In this document: positions 19,176 to 25,481 of the stretch, in pieces
How the letters are laid out: every line of letters begins with the position of its first letter
Numbering within the stretch: the first letter of the stretch is position 1
Assembly: GCF_016025255.1 (NCBI RefSeq)
Contig: NZ_CP065592.1
Coordinates: 1,159,122-1,223,121, forward strand
From: Sphingosinicella flava
GTDB taxonomy: Bacteria; Pseudomonadota; Alphaproteobacteria; Sphingomonadales; Sphingomonadaceae
Length of the DNA stretch: 64,000 bases
Direction of reading: 5' to 3'
Notes under the pieces: generated by a model
Databases searched by the model: none
Told to the model about the DNA's origin: nothing
Seen by the model: only the letters and a program-made list of their open reading frames with translations
Made by a program: the position numbers and the translations under genes

Positions 19176-21523
19176 CCGATCAACAGCTCCGCCACCGCAT
19201 CGACAACCGCATCGGCATCGAGGCGATAGTAGCGATAAAGGTCGCCGAGATTGCCGGTCTGGCCAAAGCGGTCGAGGCCAAGCGGGCTGACGCGGTGGCC
19301 ATGCACGCCGCCAATCCAGGAGAGGGCGGCTGGCGAACCGTCCAGAAGCGTCACCAAGCCCGCGTTGCGGGAAAGCCGAGCAAGGAGGTTCTCGATGTGC
19401 GAGACAGCCCCTCCACCGCCGTTCCGGCGGTCCCCCTCCCCGTCCCGGGGAGGATTTTTCCACCGGGCGCTCATGCGCTGGCTCCAGTCGCGGTGGAGGA
19501 GGTCGGGCGAGGTGACGGCAAGGAGGCCGAGGCCGGGAAGATCGTCCTTCAGCGCTTCCCACGCGGCGAGGGCTTCGGGCGCGATGGCGCCGGAATAGAC
19601 GATGGCGGCTTCGGCGCCCGGCGCGGGTTCGCGGAGCCAGTAGGCGCCCGCGATGGCGTCCGCCTTCCAGCTGTCGTCCGCGCGCACGGGCTGCGCGATG
19701 CTGCGGGTGGTGAGGCGGAGATAGACGCTCTCGCCCTCCTCGCGCTGCATCAGGCGGAAGCCTTCCTCCATGAAGAGCGCCAGTTCGTCGACGAAGGCGG
19801 GTTCGTAATGGCGGAGACCCGGCTGGCCCATGGCGATGAGCGGCGGGTTGATCGATTGGTGTGCGCCGCCTTCCGGCCCAAGCGTCACGCCGGACGGCGT
19901 CGCGACCAGCATGAAGCGCGCGTCCTGATAGCAGGCATAGTTGAGCGCATCGAGGCCGCGGGCGATGAAGGGATCGTAGACGGTGCCGATCGGGAACAGC
20001 CGCTCCCCGAACAGGTCGCCCGCGAGGCCCATGGCGGCGAGCATCAGGAACAGATTGTTTTCCGCGATGCCGAGTTCGACATGCTGGCCCGCTTTGTGGC
20101 CGCTCCATTTTTGAGGGGACGGGATCTTCGCCTTTGCGAAAACGTCGGGGAGTTCACCGCGCCGGAACAGGCCGCGCTGATTGACCCACGCGCCGAGATT
20201 GGTGGAGACGGTGACGTCGGGCGATGTCGTGACGATCCGGTCGGCGAGCGCGCCGCCGCTGCGGGAGAGATCGAGCAGGATCTTGCCGAAGGCGGCCTGC
20301 GTCGATTGCTCCTCGCCTGCGGGAGGCTGGATGGCGGGAACGTCCGCGACATTCCAGGGCCGCTGGCGCTTTTCGCGGGCGATGCGGGCGCGCTCGACCA
20401 CGGTCTTCACGGCCTCCGCGCTGTTACCGCCGAGGCCCGCATAGGGTGCCCACTCCTCGCCTTCCGCGATGCCGAGGCGTTCGCGGAGAGCGGCGATCTG
20501 GCCCGGGTTCATGAGGCCGGCATGATTGTCCTTGTGGCCCGCGAAGGGCAGCCCCTGCCCCTTCACCGTATAAGCGATGAAGAGGGTCGGCACATCGTCC
20601 TGCGCGCCGTCGAAGGCGTCGACGAGCGCGGCCATGTCGTGCCCGCCGAGATTGGTCATCAGCGCGTGGAGCGCGTCATCGTCGCGGCCGTCGAGGATCG
20701 GCTTCGCCTCCGGCGCCTCGTTCAGCAGCCGCTCGCGCCAAGCCGCGCCGCCGAGATAGGTAAGCGCGGCATAATCGGCGTTGCTCACATCCTCGAGCCA
20801 CGCCTTTAACGCCTCGCCGCCCTTCTCTGCAAACGCGGCCTCCAGCAGCTTGCCATATTTCAGCGTGACAACGCGCCAGCCGCAGCTCGCGAAAATCTCG
20901 TCGAAGCGGCGGAACATGCGGTCGGCGGTGGTGGCGTCGAGCGACTGGCGATTATAATCGACGATCCACCAGCAATTGCGGATGTCGTGCTTGTAGGCTT
21001 CGATCAGGCATTCGTAGATATTGCCTTCGTCGAGCTCCGCATCGCCCATCAAGGCGACCATGCGGCCGGTGTCTTCCGGCTGCATAATGCCGTGGGCGAG
21101 GAGATAATCCTGGATGAGGCTGGCAAAGGCGGTGATCGCGACGCCGAGACCGACCGAGCCTGTCGAGAAATCGACCGGGATCTTGTCCTTGGTCCGGCTC
21201 GGATAGCTTTGCATGCCGCCGAAGCCGCGAAAATTCTGGAGCTGCTCCAGGCTTTGCGAGCCGAGCAGATAATGGATGGCGTGAAGGACCGGCCCGGCAT
21301 GGGGCTTCACCGCGACCTTGTCGTTGGGGCCGAGCGCATGGAAATAGAGCGCCGCCATGATCGCCGTCATCGACGCGCAAGACGCCTGATGCCCGCCGAC
21401 CTTCAGCCCGTCTGTGCTTTCACGCAAGTGATTGGCATTGTGGATCGTCCAGGCAGACAGCCAGCGCAGGCGGTCGTCGAGGAGACGCAGGGCTTCAAGG
21501 TCGGGAGCGGTCTTTTTCAGCAT
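19172..21523 (-). CDS. Transketolase/AceE-like thiamine diphosphate enzyme (putative 2-oxoacid dehydrogenase E1-type)
   Basis: 783 residues. It resembles homodimeric pyruvate dehydrogenase E1 (AceE) and the 2-oxobutyrate dehydrogenase MdeB: NANHLRESTDGLKVGGHQAS, the ThDP motif GDAELDEGNIYECLIEA through WWIVDYNRQSLD, then the pyrimidine-domain part TSPDVTVSTNLGAWVNQRG and VELGIAENNLFLM with the catalytic Glu, and GGAHQSINPPLI. Such proteins are often annotated simply as transketolase. No lipoyl E2 or E3 gene adjoins it, though a bkd operon lies 2.7 kb away. About 16 residues near 690-704 (KNPPRDGEGDRRNGGGG) are read from a family C repeat. Reaction not certain. Confidence 0.75.
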   Translation of the reverse strand: MLKKTAPDLEALRLLDDRLRWLSAWTIHNANHLRESTDGLKVGGHQASCASMTAIMAALYFHALGPNDKVAVKPHAGPVLHAIHYLLGSQSLEQLQNFRGFGGMQSYPSRTKDKIPVDFSTGSVGLGVAITAFASLIQDYLLAHGIMQPEDTGRMVALMGDAELDEGNIYECLIEAYKHDIRNCWWIVDYNRQSLDATTADRMFRRFDEIFASCGWRVVTLKYGKLLEAAFAEKGGEALKAWLEDVSNADYAALTYLGGAAWRERLLNEAPEAKPILDGRDDDALHALMTNLGGHDMAALVDAFDGAQDDVPTLFIAYTVKGQGLPFAGHKDNHAGLMNPGQIAALRERLGIAEGEEWAPYAGLGGNSAEAVKTVVERARIAREKRQRPWNVADVPAIQPPAGEEQSTQAAFGKILLDLSRSGGALADRIVTTSPDVTVSTNLGAWVNQRGLFRRGELPDVFAKAKIPSPQKWSGHKAGQHVELGIAENNLFLMLAAMGLAGDLFGERLFPIGTVYDPFIARGLDALNYACYQDARFMLVATPSGVTLGPEGGAHQSINPPLIAMGQPGLRHYEPAFVDELALFMEEGFRLMQREEGESVYLRLTTRSIAQPVRADDSWKADAIAGAYWLREPAPGAEAAIVYSGAIAPEALAAWEALKDDLPGLGLLAVTSPDLLHRDWSQRMSARWKNPPRDGEGDRRNGGGGAVSHIENLLARLSRNAGLVTLLDGSPAALSWIGGVHGHRVSPLGLDRFGQTGNLGDLYRYYRLDADAVVDAVAELLIG
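19401..19463. repeat. Family C repeat inside the AceE-like gene
   Basis: CCCTCCACCGCCGTTCCGG, GCGGTCCCCCTCCCCGTC and CCGGGGAGGATTTTTCC form a C-run/G-run element of the type often seen between sphingomonad genes. Here it is translated in frame into a Gly/Arg-rich insert. Confidence 0.8.
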
Positions 21524-21638
21524 GGGGCGGCTTTAGCGTTATTGCGGGGAAAGCTGGACTCTCTTTTCCCCATACTACCTCGACCGAACGGTAGCCGACA
21601 TTAAGGAAAAATCAGGAACCATTTTCTAAACACCTTAT

Positions 21639-22196
21639 ATGAAAAAAGATGGGACGACCGTGCCGGCAGACGAGGAGATAGTGCGGATATCCAGGCCTAT
21701 CTTATTGCCCATACTGCTCGGAATAATATGGCTCATGATGGCTCCAGGTATTGTACTGGCCGCATTCGCATTATTGGGCTTTCTCATCAATGCGTTCAAC
21801 GGCGAATTTCCACCTGTGCATGACTGGTTCGTTCTGTTCTGCCTTTTATTCTTGATGCCTATCGGGTGGATATTCATTGGTCATCTGTTGTGGCAGAGAT
21901 TTAAATGTCGAGGCTCTCCACTCGCGATCGTCTCCTCGAGAGAAATTTCTCTGCCTTTCTGTCGCCCTGAACGACTACTGTGGACGGATATACGCACGGT
22001 AGAAATATCGCATTTTGCAGGAAGAAAGTTCATCCGCTTTGTTCTTTGCAATCCTGACGAAATCCTTTCGCCACGGCAGCGGCGGAAGGCATGGCCTTTT
22101 AGCGATAGCGTCTTAGTTCTCCTCGATATCTTCGGTAGCGGTGAGAAATTGCATGTCGCAGCCGTCAAAGCACATGCTCAAGCCAGTCTCAGATAG
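21639..22196 (+). CDS. Small membrane protein, STM3941/PH-like, function unknown
   Basis: 185 residues. Two long hydrophobic segments (about 21-50 and 63-88: ILLPILLGIIWLMMAPGIVL, WFVLFCLLFLMPIGWIFIG) are followed by a soluble part with alternating strands (PLAIVSSREISLPFCRPERLLWTDIRTVEIS), like the STM3941 or PH-domain membrane proteins. I rate that match as moderate. The gene is visibly AT-richer, with codons such as TTA, ATA and AGA that neighbours avoid, and has no clear ribosome-binding site: signs of transfer. It is divergent from the AceE-like gene. Confidence 0.7.
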   Translation: MKKDGTTVPADEEIVRISRPILLPILLGIIWLMMAPGIVLAAFALLGFLINAFNGEFPPVHDWFVLFCLLFLMPIGWIFIGHLLWQRFKCRGSPLAIVSSREISLPFCRPERLLWTDIRTVEISHFAGRKFIRFVLCNPDEILSPRQRRKAWPFSDSVLVLLDIFGSGEKLHVAAVKAHAQASLR

Positions 22197-22262
22197 CCAA
22201 GAAGGCTCGCCTCTTCGCTACGCAGAAACTGACACTGTTGATCCTTTCGCACGACCAATCTG

Positions 22263-22685
22263 TCAGCTTTGACAGTTTCCGGGCGTGTCGAGCCGGTCCG
22301 TTACCCGATCGAGTGCCCGCAGGGTGCGGAACAGCGCGCGGTGATCCGATCTTTGGACGAAGCCGATGAGGCGCCCACGATAGTAACGGGGGATGAGCAT
22401 CACATCGTCCCTGGTGCCCGGCAATGCGGCCTCCAGCGCGACATCGGCGCCACGGGCAAAATCCTGGGCGGCATCCCAGGCGGCGGCGAAACTTTCGGCG
22501 CCGGGCTTGGCGCGCAGCGCGTAAGCGGTCTGGCGGCTCTTGCCTTCGCGGCGGGCGGCGGCGGACGGCCCCAAGCCGCGCGCGAGGGAGAGGATGAAGC
22601 GGCGTTGAGCAGCCTCCGTCCAGCCATCGTGGCGCGCCCGGGTGGAGACGGGCGTGAAGCGCAGGAAATCGGGAAGAGCGTCCAT
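22263..22685 (-). CDS. Small helix-turn-helix protein, probable DNA-binding
   Basis: 140 residues: FTPVSTRARHDGWTEAAQRRFILSLARGLGPSAAARREGKSRQTAYALRAKPGAESFAAAWD. This resembles a sphingomonad-specific family with a helix-turn-helix (LGPSAAARREGKSRQTAYALR, about 37-57). The rest, DDVMLIPRYYRGRLIGFVQRSDHRALFRTLRALDR, is also typical. Its target is unknown. No operon partner is visible. Confidence 0.7.
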   Translation of the reverse strand: MDALPDFLRFTPVSTRARHDGWTEAAQRRFILSLARGLGPSAAARREGKSRQTAYALRAKPGAESFAAAWDAAQDFARGADVALEAALPGTRDDVMLIPRYYRGRLIGFVQRSDHRALFRTLRALDRVTDRLDTPGNCQS

Positions 22686-22798
22686 GGCGGCGAGCCTAAG
22701 CCAATGGGCATGCTGTAGGAAAATGGTTTTTTGAGGCGCGGGTCGGCGGAGCTTCGGGCGGATCCGTGGGTTGTTTCGCCAAGAGCGAGGACAGGGCC

Positions 22799-23077
22799 AT
22801 GGACGAAACCGAAGCCGATATCGTCAAAGCGGAAGTGGTGGCAATCCAGGCCGTGCTGATGGCCGTTTTCCGCCGTCTCGCCACGGACCGGGCCGATCTG
22901 GCGCCGCTCTTCTGCCGCGCGTTCGACGAAGCGGAGACGATCCTCGCGGGAGTGGCCGTGAAGCTGGGACTGGAAACGCCGCTTTCTTCCATGACCGGCG
23001 CCATGACCGTATTGGAGGAATTCCGCCGCGCCGTCCTGGGCGACGAAAGCGGCTGCCACGACGCCGTGCGCGATTGA
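22799..23077 (+). CDS. Small alpha-helical protein, function unknown
   Basis: 92 residues from the ATG at 22799 (GAGGACAGGG upstream). Predicted all-helical and mildly acidic: MDETEADIVKAEVVAIQAVL, AVFRRLATDRADLAPLFCRAFDEAETIL. Ends 11 bases before the PagL-like gene on the same strand, which starts with its own good ribosome-binding site, so the two are probably co-transcribed. I recognise no domain. Confidence 0.6.
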   Translation: MDETEADIVKAEVVAIQAVLMAVFRRLATDRADLAPLFCRAFDEAETILAGVAVKLGLETPLSSMTGAMTVLEEFRRAVLGDESGCHDAVRD

Positions 23078-23088
23078 GGGAGAAAAAG

Positions 23089-23613
23089 ATGAGGATGATT
23101 GTCGCCGCCGGACTATCCGTTGCGCTGCCCTGGGCCGGTTCCGCCCGGGCGGACGAGATATTCGGCGGCCTCCACACCCAGGATGTCGATACCGTCTTCA
23201 CCAAGAGCGGGATCGAGGAGGGCGTCGCTCTGCAGCTCGGCTGGCGCGGCGACAGGATCGGCGCCTTGGGATTTATCGGCCGCCCTTCCCCCCACGCCTT
23301 CGTTTCGGTGAGCACGGATGGAGGCGCGAATTTCGCCGCGGCGGGCCTCAGCTGGAAATTCGGAAAGACGGTCTATGCGCGGCCCGGCATCGGGATTGCG
23401 ATCCACGACGGGCCCGGCGGAGAGATCGACCGGCGCGATCGCATCGTCTTCGGGTCACGCGTGCTGTTCGAGCCGGAAATCGCGGTGGGATATCAAGTCA
23501 GCGGGCGCGTGTCGGTGGAGGCAAGCTGGGTGCATTTGAGCCACGCGCAGCTGTTCAGCCGGCAAAATCCCGGGATCGACAATATCGGGATGCGGGTGAA
23601 TTACCGGTTTTAG
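23089..23613 (+). CDS. PagL-like acyloxyacyl hydrolase/lipid deacylase of the outer membrane
   Basis: 174 residues from the ATG at 23089 behind GAGGGAGAAAAAG. Signal peptide MRMIVAAGLSVALPWAGSARA, then alternating beta strands and a C-terminal aromatic residue (NYRF), as in small outer-membrane barrels. The PagL catalytic pattern is visible as His149-x-Ser151 in EASWVHLSHAQLF. The position of Glu140 of Pseudomonas PagL is Asp164 here (NPGIDNIG). PagL removes the 3-O acyl chain of lipid A; sphingomonads mostly carry glycosphingolipids instead, so the substrate may differ. Confidence 0.75.
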   Translation: MRMIVAAGLSVALPWAGSARADEIFGGLHTQDVDTVFTKSGIEEGVALQLGWRGDRIGALGFIGRPSPHAFVSVSTDGGANFAAAGLSWKFGKTVYARPGIGIAIHDGPGGEIDRRDRIVFGSRVLFEPEIAVGYQVSGRVSVEASWVHLSHAQLFSRQNPGIDNIGMRVNYRF

Positions 23614-23641
23614 CGTTTGGCATCGGAGCCGAAGAGGAAAG

Positions 23642-23713
23642 GAGATTCCAGCTTTCGCTGGAATGACGGTTTAATTTTTAGGTTCACGTCATTCCAGCGA
23701 AAGCTGGAATCTC
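23642..23713. repeat. Inverted pair of family B hairpins, left of the GIY-YIG gene
   Basis: A 27-base unit at 23642-23668 and its perfect reverse complement at 23687-23713. The core of each is ATTCCAGCGAAAGCTGGAAT or its complement. Confidence 0.95.
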
Positions 23714-23738
23714 ACTTCACTTCCGCTAGCTTCGACGC

Positions 23739-24029
23739 ATGCACGGCGGCTGGACATACATCATGACGAACCGGGCGCGCGGTGTTCTTTACATTGGCGT
23801 CACGTCCGATCTGGCCGCGCGTGTGTTCCAGCACCGGAACGGCGAGGGGTCGGACTTCTGCTGCCGCTACCGGCTGGCGCGGCTGGTGCTGGCGGAACGG
23901 CATGAGCGGATCGAGGATGCGATCGTGCGGGAGAAATTGCTGAAGACGTGGCAGCGGGCGTGGAAGATCGAGCTGGTGGAGAAAGCCAATCCAGGTTGGC
24001 GGGATTTATTTGAAGATATCAATCGGTAG
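23739..24029 (+). CDS. Small GIY-YIG nuclease domain protein
   Basis: 96 residues: GGWTYIMTNRARGVLYIGVTSDLAARVFQHRNG carries the GIY-YIG core (TYI then LYIG), the conserved Arg (AARVFQHR) and, after the central strand, the metal-binding Glu in AIVREKLLKTWQRAWKIELVE. The ending NPGWRDLFED is typical of the YhbQ-like single-domain group. Biochemical role of these stand-alone domains is unclear. It starts 26 bases after one repeat pair and ends 9 bases before a cluster of three more units, so it is embedded in the repeats. No other domain is present, so it is not UvrC. Confidence 0.9.
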   Translation: MHGGWTYIMTNRARGVLYIGVTSDLAARVFQHRNGEGSDFCCRYRLARLVLAERHERIEDAIVREKLLKTWQRAWKIELVEKANPGWRDLFEDINR

Positions 24030-24037
24030 GGGAAGAG

Positions 24038-24157
24038 AGATTCCAGCTTTCGCTGGAATGACGAGGGGCTTTGGAGCTGTATTAAGAAGTGAGATTCCAG
24101 CTTTCGTTGGAATGACGATTTTTGGAGTCACGTCATTCCAGCGAAAGCTGGAATCTC
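24038..24157. repeat. Cluster of three family B hairpin units, right of the GIY-YIG gene
   Basis: Two units in one orientation (24038-24063 and 24091-24117; the second has one change, GTTGG for GCTGG) and one in the opposite orientation (24131-24157). The last ends 17 bases before the E2 stop codon. Confidence 0.95.
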
Positions 24158-24173
24158 TCTTCCCCTTCAACCC

Positions 24174-25481
24174 TCACCGCATCGACAGCAATTTCAGCGG
24201 GTTTTCGATCAGCTTTTTCAAATCCTGCATGAAGCTCGCCGCGTCCCAGCCGTCGACGACGCGGTGGTCGCAGGAGATGGAGAGGTTCATCCGCTTGCGG
24301 ATTTCGAGCTCGCCGTCGATCACGGCCGGCTTTTCCTCCACCTTGTTGACCGCGATGATCGCGACTTCGGGGCGGTTGATAACCGGGGTCGAGACGACGC
24401 CGCCCATGGGCCCAAGGCTCGAAATGGTGATGGTGGAGCCGGAGAGTTCCTCGCGGGTCGCCTTGCCTGCGCGGGCGGCGTCGGCGAGGCGCTTGATCTC
24501 CGCTGCAAGGCCCCAGAGGTCGCGGCTTTCGGCATTGCGGATCACGGCGACGGACAGGCCCTGATCGGTCTGCGTCGCCATGCCCATATGGACGGCGCCC
24601 GAACGGGTGATGACATTGGCTTCGTCATCATAGCGGGCGTTGATCTGCGGATAATCGGCCAGCGTCCGGCTCATCGCGGTGATGAGGAAGGGGAGCATGG
24701 TGAGCTTCGGATTGCCGCCGCGATCCGCGTTCATCATCGCGCGCGTTTGCTCGAGCGCGGTGACGTCATATTCCTCGACATAGGTGAAATGCGGGATGCG
24801 GCGCTTCGCTTCCTGCATATTCTCCGCGATCTTGCGGCGGAGGCCGACGACCTTGATCTGCTCGTCCTCGCGCGGCGCGGAACCGCGCGCGGAGACCGAG
24901 CCGCCATTGTAAAGGAGATAGGCGTCGAGATCGGCGTGGCGGATGCGGTCGGAGGCGGTGCGGACCTGGCTGAGGTCGATGCCGAGATCGCGGGCGCGCT
25001 GGCGGACGGCGGGAGAGGCGAGGACATGGGCTTTCTTGTCTTCCGCACCATTTTCGTTCGTGGCGAGCGCAGTCGAGGCGCGCTGTTCGGTTTGCGTGAC
25101 ACGCCCCTCGACTTCGCTCGGGACGAACGTTTCTTGGGTGGAGGGAATGGCTTCCTCAATCTGGGGCGTCGGTTCGATCAGGCCGTCTCCCAACGCGACA
25201 GTGTCGCTCCGCTCGGCTTCGGGAGGAGCGGCAACCTCACCCTCGGTCTCAAACACGACGAGCACGGATCCGATGGCGATCTGGTCACCAACTTCGCCCG
25301 CAAGCGATACGACCTTGCCGGACACCGGCGCTTCCATCTCCACCGTCGCCTTGTCGGTCATCATGTCGGCGATCTGCTGATCTTCCTTGACGGTGTCGCC
25401 GACCTTGATGTGCCATGCGACGATCTCGGCCTCGGCAATGCCTTCGCCGATGTCGGGCAGCTTGAATTCGAAGCGCGCCAT
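24174..25481 (-). CDS. bkdB: Branched-chain 2-oxoacid dehydrogenase E2, dihydrolipoyl acyltransferase
   Basis: 435 residues from the ATG at 25481 with GGAGG ten bases upstream; a TTG overlapping the previous stop is less likely. One N-terminal lipoyl domain with Lys44 in DKATVEM, a peripheral-subunit-binding domain (about 152-186: VLASPAVRQRARDLGIDLSQV), and the catalytic acyltransferase domain with SCDHRVVDGWDA near the end. It transfers the acyl group from E1 to CoA. The linker (about 118-146) holds FVPSEVEGR and ASTALATNENG, read from a family A repeat. Last gene of the bkd operon; no E3 gene follows. Confidence 0.93.
   Translation of the reverse strand: MARFEFKLPDIGEGIAEAEIVAWHIKVGDTVKEDQQIADMMTDKATVEMEAPVSGKVVSLAGEVGDQIAIGSVLVVFETEGEVAAPPEAERSDTVALGDGLIEPTPQIEEAIPSTQETFVPSEVEGRVTQTEQRASTALATNENGAEDKKAHVLASPAVRQRARDLGIDLSQVRTASDRIRHADLDAYLLYNGGSVSARGSAPREDEQIKVVGLRRKIAENMQEAKRRIPHFTYVEEYDVTALEQTRAMMNADRGGNPKLTMLPFLITAMSRTLADYPQINARYDDEANVITRSGAVHMGMATQTDQGLSVAVIRNAESRDLWGLAAEIKRLADAARAGKATREELSGSTITISSLGPMGGVVSTPVINRPEVAIIAVNKVEEKPAVIDGELEIRKRMNLSISCDHRVVDGWDAASFMQDLKKLIENPLKLLSMR
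25055..25129. repeat. Family A repeat inside the E2 linker
   Basis: CGTTCGTGGCGAGCGCAGTC at the left and CCTCGACTTCGCTCGGGACG at the right are diverged copies of the arms seen at 1149-1224. It is read in frame in bkdB. Confidence 0.85.

Follow-up and report, generated by a model that had tools for sequence, protein, structure and literature searches.

A candidate small mobile element with CGTC-palindrome ends and a lone GIY-YIG nuclease gene in Sphingosinicella flava and related bacteria

Positions 23687-24063 of the analysed stretch of Sphingosinicella flava DNA (64,000 nucleotides in length, hereafter the window) are likely to represent a small mobile element, which ends in CGTC palindromes, has a GIY-YIG nuclease gene as its sole gene and is the partner of the CGTC repeats. 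Comparison of sequences gives good support to the reading that the tag-to-tag block is one mobile unit bounded by matching CGTC palindromes, while catalysis by the nuclease is inferred, with no biochemical or genetic data. The gene is surrounded by five CGTC-tagged palindromes (CGTCATTCCAGCGAAAGCTGGAATCTC), and the features of the block, in window positions, are as follows.

23645-23668, minus strand: outer left CGTC unit, in a tags-inward pair with 23687-23710
23687-23710, plus strand: inner left CGTC unit with outward-pointing tag, proposed left element end, in a layout common in relatives
23739-24029, plus strand: stand-alone GIY-YIG nuclease gene, 96 aa (PF01541 E 4.4e-11; 24-member alignment; AlphaFold2 pLDDT 94.3)
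24040-24063, minus strand: inner right CGTC unit with outward-pointing tag, proposed right element end, in a layout common in relatives
24094-24117, minus strand: outer right CGTC unit with one stem mismatch
24131-24154, plus strand: outer right CGTC unit, in a tags-inward pair with 24094-24117
23687-24063, plus strand: proposed mobile unit of 377 bp, CGTC-hairpin / GIY-YIG gene / hairpin-GACG, inferred from copies elsewhere

All five units of the block end in a CGTC tag. The 8-bp stem ATTCCAGC, which begins with AT, and the 4-base loop GAAA meet the stem and loop criterion of CGTC-1 repeats, defined by a CGTC tag, an 8-bp stem starting with AT, a 4-base loop and a tail that is mostly CCA (PMC3733652). 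The unpaired tail of the window units is CTC; in relatives CCA was the commonest tail (41 of 87 on the left, 44 of 87 on the right), and CTC, CGC and CCC also occurred. The preliminary description of this DNA had placed a 96-residue GIY-YIG gene amid five hairpin repeats, with a perfect inverted pair on its left, in the densest repeat cluster of a window devoid of RAYT genes. These points were borne out: the PF01541 match and five CGTC units were confirmed, the left pair is identical over its 24-nt cores (94% complementary over 32 nt), 5 of the 7 units that the window holds under the strict definition lie within this 510-bp block, and the absence of RAYT extends to the whole host genome, where Y1_Tnp PF01797 had 0 matches at E 0.001.

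The CGTC repeat is multicopy and dispersed over the 2.42-Mb host genome. Allowing up to 3 mismatches, TTCCAGCNNNNGCTGGAA occurred 25 times within the 64-kb window, where shuffled sequence led to an expectation of 3.17 and a highest count of 11; the whole genome contained 165 matches at up to 2 mismatches, as compared to 46 for a reversed control pattern, at least 37 exact TTCCAGCNNNNGCTGGAA sites and 93 matches to the type-1 pattern, both strands taken together. Gene-less tags-outward pairs of the same repeat are also present in the host genome, which share the repeat and the short tail with the element and have spacers unlike the gene's flanks, as judged by eye. The spacers of the two tags-inward pairs flanking the gene (23668-23687 and 24117-24131) are related to each other (91% over 45 nt, family D2). 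It should be added that the tags-inward pair looks as if it were itself a repeated unit.

The 96-residue product consists of a GIY-YIG domain over nearly its full length (Pfam PF01541, E 4.4e-11). Residues Y7, Y18, G20, R28, H32, E65 and N84 are invariant in the 24-member alignment of the subfamily, and we take the catalytic residues to be among them. By domain signature and conserved residues the protein belongs to the GIY-YIG superfamily, and its AlphaFold2 model (pLDDT 94.3) met the criterion for the GIY-YIG fold. The top match of the model in Foldseek was 1zg2 (UPF0213 BH0048) at E 7.3e-3, followed by the GIY-YIG domains of Slx1 and UvrC, with nothing below E 0.001. By sequence, the family profile was closest to 1zg2 (E 1.4e-10) and 1ywl (E 8.6e-7) among the solved structures, and UPF0213 (1zg2, 1ywl) and Slx1 are the closest solved relatives by sequence or fold. 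Since the fold relative Slx1-Slx4 processes branched DNA, according to the titles of structure entries, an action of the nuclease on hairpins or cruciforms is plausible, albeit not shown. A PADLOC run returned no match, and Rfam gave only sub-threshold matches, mostly to microRNA hairpins, which were rejected.

Values of dN/dS were between 0.06 and 0.20 in 7 of 9 between-species pairs and 0.41 in one (7 changes), one pair yielding no value; across seven same-genome pairs, with few changes each, they ranged from 0.11 to 1.15. The invariant residues and the low between-species values count in favour of the element reading, the value of 0.41 and the same-genome values against it. The single further GIY-YIG match of the host genome lies inside a 641-aa frame, which is the size of UvrC. 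Genes of the family are labelled in plasmid records as ‘GIY-YIG nuclease family protein’, ‘hypothetical protein’ or ‘excinuclease ABC subunit C’; the last label is carried, for instance, by a member in AP027312.1 that is yet much shorter than UvrC.

Bracketing by CGTC units was assessed across relatives. The search of 41 genomes, the host's own and 40 relatives, resulted in 124 GIY-YIG matches, 38 of which were UvrC-like by frame and score. The order-level set comprised the best-scoring 60 of 85 non-UvrC genes (32 genomes), besides the window's gene, and the UvrC set 20 of the 38. By motif, 29 of the order-level genes belonged to the GHTDDL type and the other 32, five of them odd, to the GVTSDL type. 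Among the 26 regular GVTSDL genes other than the window's, 19 had a CGTC unit within 150 bp, 16 had units on both sides and 13 showed the inward layout (CGTC> gene <GACG), as compared to none of the 29 GHTDDL genes with a unit within 150 bp (p = 2e-9 against the regular GVTSDL genes). Such a unit was found at one of the five odd GVTSDL genes, and the UvrC genes had a unit in 4 of 20 cases, with none bracketed on both sides or in the inward layout. In the phylogenetic tree, the 29 GHTDDL proteins formed one clade (support 0.935); monophyly of the bracketed subfamily was not established.

A scan of GTDB contigs provided 580 confirmed relatives, the best 80 of which, mostly from alphaproteobacteria, were used. 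A unit within 150 bp was present at 69 of these 80 and missing from 11; units stood on both sides in 52, with the inward layout in 49. Size-matched ORFs of the same loci had any unit in 30 of 572 cases and random positions in 66 of 1327, neither control containing a single both-sided or inward case. Repeats are strongly enriched at these genes, and the lack of enrichment that the preliminary description had named as a refutation did not turn up. The greedy gene calls from these loci, a different set also numbering 572, had any unit in 113 cases, both sides in 6 and the inward layout in 1; the figure of 113 is inflated, since neighbours share the units of the GIY-YIG gene. Unit density was 12.1 per kb at 0-50 bp from the gene as compared to 0.12-0.19 per kb beyond 500 bp.

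The initial strict unit definition was the published consensus, later widened to GTC[AG] stems after reading the flanks of misses, and the 150-bp bracketing counts for the best-80 and order-level sets are therefore partly post hoc. With the strict consensus and a distance of up to 300 bp, 34 of the best 80 of the 580 relatives had units on both sides, 18 on one and 28 on none. Further loci were tested after the definition had been fixed: best-match loci from the class had any unit in 21 of 29 cases, both sides in 10 and the inward layout in 7 (one locus repeats a locus of the best-80 set), and those from the phylum had any unit in 22 of 26, both sides in 16 and the inward layout in 15. One genome (G163) yielded 12 matches, of which 11 were examined, and one of these, with a score of 50 bits, falls outside the subfamily. 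A unit within 300 bp, with differing stem types, was present at 6 of the 11 genes and missing from 5, and blastn detected no recent duplicate there.

Within the phylum to which the window belongs, 105 of 398 genomes have the family at E 1e-15 or better. A gene of Neisseria gonorrhoeae is embedded in densely arrayed CGTC-1 (dRS3-type) units without showing the inward layout, and for this reason its adjacency to the repeats says little. A gene of Planktothrix is near TGTCATTCTGAGTGAAACGAAGAATCTC-type repeats, which fail the unit definition. Plasmid p1 of Planktothrix agardhii carries a related GIY-YIG gene with an MmeI-like restriction gene on one side and DISARM drmA on the other, amid TGTCATTCTGAG repeats.

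The flanking palindromes belong to their own gene, as the stems match within a locus. Among 162 loci 87 were bracketed, with three loci duplicated across collections, and 85 bracketed loci remained without them. The first 8 bases of the left and right stems were identical in 54 of the 87; when partners were exchanged between loci in 2000 permutations, identity arose in 5.5 loci on average and in 14 at most. The length from tag to tag had a median of 382 bp (range 343-595), that of the window block being 377 bp. To locate the element boundary, we considered where homology between copies ceases in 2551 pairs with a usable match, which are not independent of each other. Most HSP ends fell inside the element, short of the unit (1370 of 1860 on the left, 1515 of 2072 on the right), so the boundary rests on the remaining ends; of those reaching a unit, 381 of 490 on the left and 401 of 557 on the right lay within 5 nt of the outer end of the tag.

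Taken with the stem matching and the nusA-ylxR comparison described below, these HSP ends meet the criterion of terminal inverted repeats bounding a mobile unit, as known from DDE-type insertion sequences; their other hallmark, a target-site duplication, was not met, with no excess of flank identity at 2-9 nt in the 85 bracketed loci. The base just outside the tag was mostly a pyrimidine in these loci (86% on the left, 78% on the right, read towards the tag). G was seldom seen among the 12 nt outside the tags when the strand was read in the direction of the tag. Both the scarcity of G and the pyrimidine at position -1 may reflect target choice.

Furthermore, copies of the block occur at different sites of the same genome, namely three in Erythrobacter sanguineus (L087, L104, L109) and two each in Erythrobacteraceae E2-1 (L089, L093) and Sphingobium arseniciresistens (L100, L107). 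They are 89-96% identical across the block, and homology past it extends for about 40 bp on the left and 0-35 bp on the right in E. sanguineus, 50 bp on the right in E2-1, and 90 bp on the left and 70 bp on the right in S. arseniciresistens, and no further. The three E. sanguineus copies share ATTCAGCTATCGACCCCGGAACGGACTT, about 40 bp to the left of CGTC and outside the tags, and the two E2-1 copies share TGTCCGCTAACGACCCAATTGCGGACATT, about 50 bp to the right of GACG and likewise outside; perhaps these stretches are another repeat serving as insertion target. The copies from Sinorhizobium meliloti and Shinella, with 77-78% DNA identity, align in one piece that runs from CGTC on the left up to the tag on the right, here GACA, their flanks otherwise sharing only further repeat copies and a truncated gene copy.

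The abundance of the repeats was compared with presence of the gene in 240 genomes of the class, 68 of which carried the subfamily (top hit at roughly 105 bits or above, with E of 2e-30 or lower; next best genome at 3.8e-17). At least 5 type-1 CGTC matches were found in 19 of these 68 genomes and in 6 of the 172 without the subfamily (odds 10.7, p = 2e-7), and at least 20 in 12 of 68 and 1 of 172, both without phylogeny correction. There were fewer than 5 type-1 matches in 49 of the 68 genomes with the gene, the pattern covering one stem class, and repeat-rich genomes without the gene also exist (G082 with 82 type-1 matches, G033 with 28 TTCCCGC matches).

Individual repeat families were tested in 41 genomes of the order, with genes from the best 60 of 85 only and again without phylogeny correction. 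TTCCCGC-type repeats numbered 11, 48, 6, 23, 6, 41 and 41 in the seven genomes with a gene flanked by that type and were commoner there than in the 34 other genomes (p = 3e-4), and GCTGAACTTG-type repeats numbered 16, 23, 8 and 40 in the four genomes with a gene so flanked and were commoner than in the 37 others (p = 2e-5). Cut-offs of 6 and 5 copies had been chosen post hoc, and the tests were rerun cut-off-free with flanking copies subtracted, which are the p values given; for G008 and G009 the adjacency of gene and repeat was read from coordinates after seeing the counts. Two genomes (G024 and G021) had 40 and 10 TTCCCGC matches and no gene flanked by that type among the best 60 of 85, and in G020 the gene stands beside a related GCCGAACTTG unit, yet no copy matches the GCTGAACTTG pattern. 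On this indirect evidence, uncorrected for phylogeny, the gene probably drives the repeats.

The chief rival explanation, in our view improbable and still to be taken seriously, is that a free-standing homing endonuclease lands in existing CGTC palindrome pairs and that the repeats owe their spread to another agent. Some homing endonucleases have GIY-YIG domains, free-standing ones exist, such as those of the phage T4 seg genes, and the 96-aa protein has a weak match to the homing endonuclease phrog_7168 (E 0.011); the gene-less tags-outward pairs of the host genome could be empty targets. Repeat abundance, which follows the matching gene type, and short gene-less sites between nusA and ylxR speak against it.

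The nusA-ylxR gap also shows the block as something that is either present or absent; 61 genomes of one genus were searched for it and 30 loci, from 30 species, were read. The gene was present in 3 species, in the same orientation in each, and absent from 27. One carrier (G545) is bracketed by definition, and the other two have variant CGTC hairpins on both sides, as seen by eye. In G545 the element measures about 460 bp from tag to tag, leaving about 41 bp outside the block, and in a sister species with a 90% identical NusA segment the whole nusA-ylxR gap is 43 bp. Ten of the 27 gene-less gaps are short (28-57 bp) and lack any CGTC unit that fits the definition, so that the ends seem to have arrived there together with the gene; a lone CGTC unit is present in one longer gap without the gene (L343).

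The stretch that follows the pyruvate dehydrogenase E2 gene, where the element sits in the window, was read in 24 of 25 relatives from the same genus, and none of the 24 had a GIY-YIG gene within 1.5 kb. A clean empty site was nonetheless rejected, since the neighbouring PagL-like gene is missing in the relatives too, and the locus cannot be called empty there. The search for empty sites, suggested in the preliminary description for the whole block, thus failed at the window's locus and succeeded as presence and absence of other copies. In the window, the E2 gene is followed by about 2.6 kb (21523-24174) that hold the GIY-YIG block as well as several small genes. In one relative (G009), the E2 gene is directly followed by a CGTC hairpin and then by an E1-type dehydrogenase gene, as seen by eye.

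Presence and absence were also observed in two other gaps. In the fnrL-regulator gap of Sphingobium plasmids, the element is present in 7 records and missing from 4, two of which (TomTYG74 and TomTYG64, L197 and L198) have a single hairpin tagged CGTC/GACG at both sides, one lacks such a hairpin and one has a TTCCAGC hairpin. In the gltA-lpxB gap of Sinorhizobium, strain Ak57 has the element and a truncated second copy, and strain K101 (L278) has one hairpin with CCTC and GACA ends plus a degenerate unit. The gene-less hairpins of L197, L198 and L278 look as if built from the outer arms of both end units. Such single hairpins may be excision scars, targets or slippage products; slippage between hairpin arms, which needs no enzyme, could yield these alleles, and this is a point against the element model.

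Mobilisation of gene and repeats in trans by an unrelated enzyme, a Y1/RAYT or other transposase, with the nuclease as cargo, appears to us very improbable. Many mobile elements do carry cargo, and the activity of the nuclease is only inferred. Against this reading, the host has no Y1 transposase, and at least 5 type-1 matches were found in 6 of 53 genomes with Y1 transposases as compared to 19 of 187 without (p = 0.8), a comparison restricted to the Y1 family. RAYT as partner of these repeats accordingly found no support: type-1 abundance in the 240 genomes tracks the GIY-YIG subfamily and not Y1, and a RAYT elsewhere in the genome with flanks of the same repeat, named beforehand as a refutation, did not turn up. 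PMC3733652 states in addition that CGTC units flank neither RAYT genes nor any other gene for an IS200 transposase. That CGTC hairpins merely gather at gene borders as terminators or mRNA stabilisers can hardly be upheld, despite the 113 of 572 other gene calls with a unit within 150 bp (inflated by shared units) and the mostly downstream position of REPs (PMC3733652), given both-side bracketing of 52 of the best 80 of 580 relatives versus 6 of 572 other gene calls (inward layout 49 versus 1), of 0 of 20 UvrC and 0 of 29 GHTDDL genes, as well as the HSP ends, stem matching and nusA-ylxR comparison. 

The suggestion of the preliminary description that gene and repeats form one selfish unit is, by the same bracketing, stem matching, tag-ending homology and presence/absence, strongly supported. 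Its other suggestion, a nuclease that nicks or spreads the palindromes, agrees with the genome comparisons and is inferred from them alone.

Several known systems resemble the proposed element in part. GTAG REPs are thought to be non-autonomous relatives of RAYT transposases. The REPtron and REPIN systems of GTAG REPs and RAYTs likewise have a gene flanked by a palindrome thought to be mobilised, and many gene-less repeats and pairs; their criterion of a gene flanked by a genome-dispersed repeat family is met in the host and also in other genomes. The criteria of a Y1 (HUH) transposase and GTAG tags are not, the enzyme here being a 96-aa GIY-YIG nuclease and the tag CGTC. IS200/IS605 elements have end palindromes, no target-site duplication and an HUH transposase; the element shares with them the palindromic ends and the lack of target-site duplication and differs in having no HUH transposase and in that both its ends are inverted copies of one palindrome. 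Free-standing GIY-YIG homing endonucleases are alike as stand-alone selfish genes, whereas the element is palindrome-bounded and, instead of being tied to a single allelic position, occurs at unrelated sites.

CGTC REPs are one of two super-families of bacterial REPs (PMC3733652), and the window units are like CGTC-tagged REPs, including Neisseria dRS3 and Rickettsia RPE-4 and RPE-6 (same source), in tag, stem, loop, short unpaired tail, dispersal and occurrence in pairs. CGTC REPs are described in that work as lacking a dedicated transposase, the autonomous elements having been suggested to be lost early (Di Nocera et al. 2013, PMC3733652). What differs here from the REPs as published there is that one GIY-YIG subfamily is bracketed by them and that the whole block moves. 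No word beginning with ‘GIY’ occurs in the main text of PMC3733652, the two genes share one gene list in the available part of PMC9465073 without any link being drawn, and among the open-access matches listed no title or abstract start linked GIY-YIG genes to REP or CGTC repeats. The novelty of the association rests on the statement about the missing transposase and on the absence of a linking paper among those matches.

In the mechanism that we propose, the nuclease would recognise its own family of CGTC hairpins, as a cruciform or a single-strand hairpin, and would cut at or near the tag; new sites could then receive, through repair or replication, a copy of the entire element or of palindromes and palindrome pairs that lack the gene. 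CGTC repeats scattered through the genome would be non-autonomous relatives of the element, and loss of the gene could leave orphan repeat families behind. These steps are inferred from genome comparisons alone. GIY-YIG nucleases are not known to bring about transposition unaided.

The data suggest that the nuclease is the missing helper that spreads the CGTC class, one of two large classes of small repeats in bacteria. We lean, by a narrow balance of judgement, towards an unrecognised class of autonomous elements, among the smallest known (about 340-600 bp, with a single gene that has about 96 codons), whose CGTC palindromes are mobilised by their own lone GIY-YIG nuclease and which is the source of the alphaproteobacterial CGTC repeats, perhaps of Neisseria dRS3 and possibly of related cyanobacterial repeats. 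If true, this would add a new nuclease class for transposition, explain the origin of CGTC repeats and provide a role for vaguely annotated GIY-YIG genes, and it would stand beside the RAYT transposases of GTAG REPs as a second solution to the same task. With a mobile gene partner whose flanking stems match, the origin of CGTC repeats becomes testable, as one host can offer the gene, the repeat family and the gene-less relatives.
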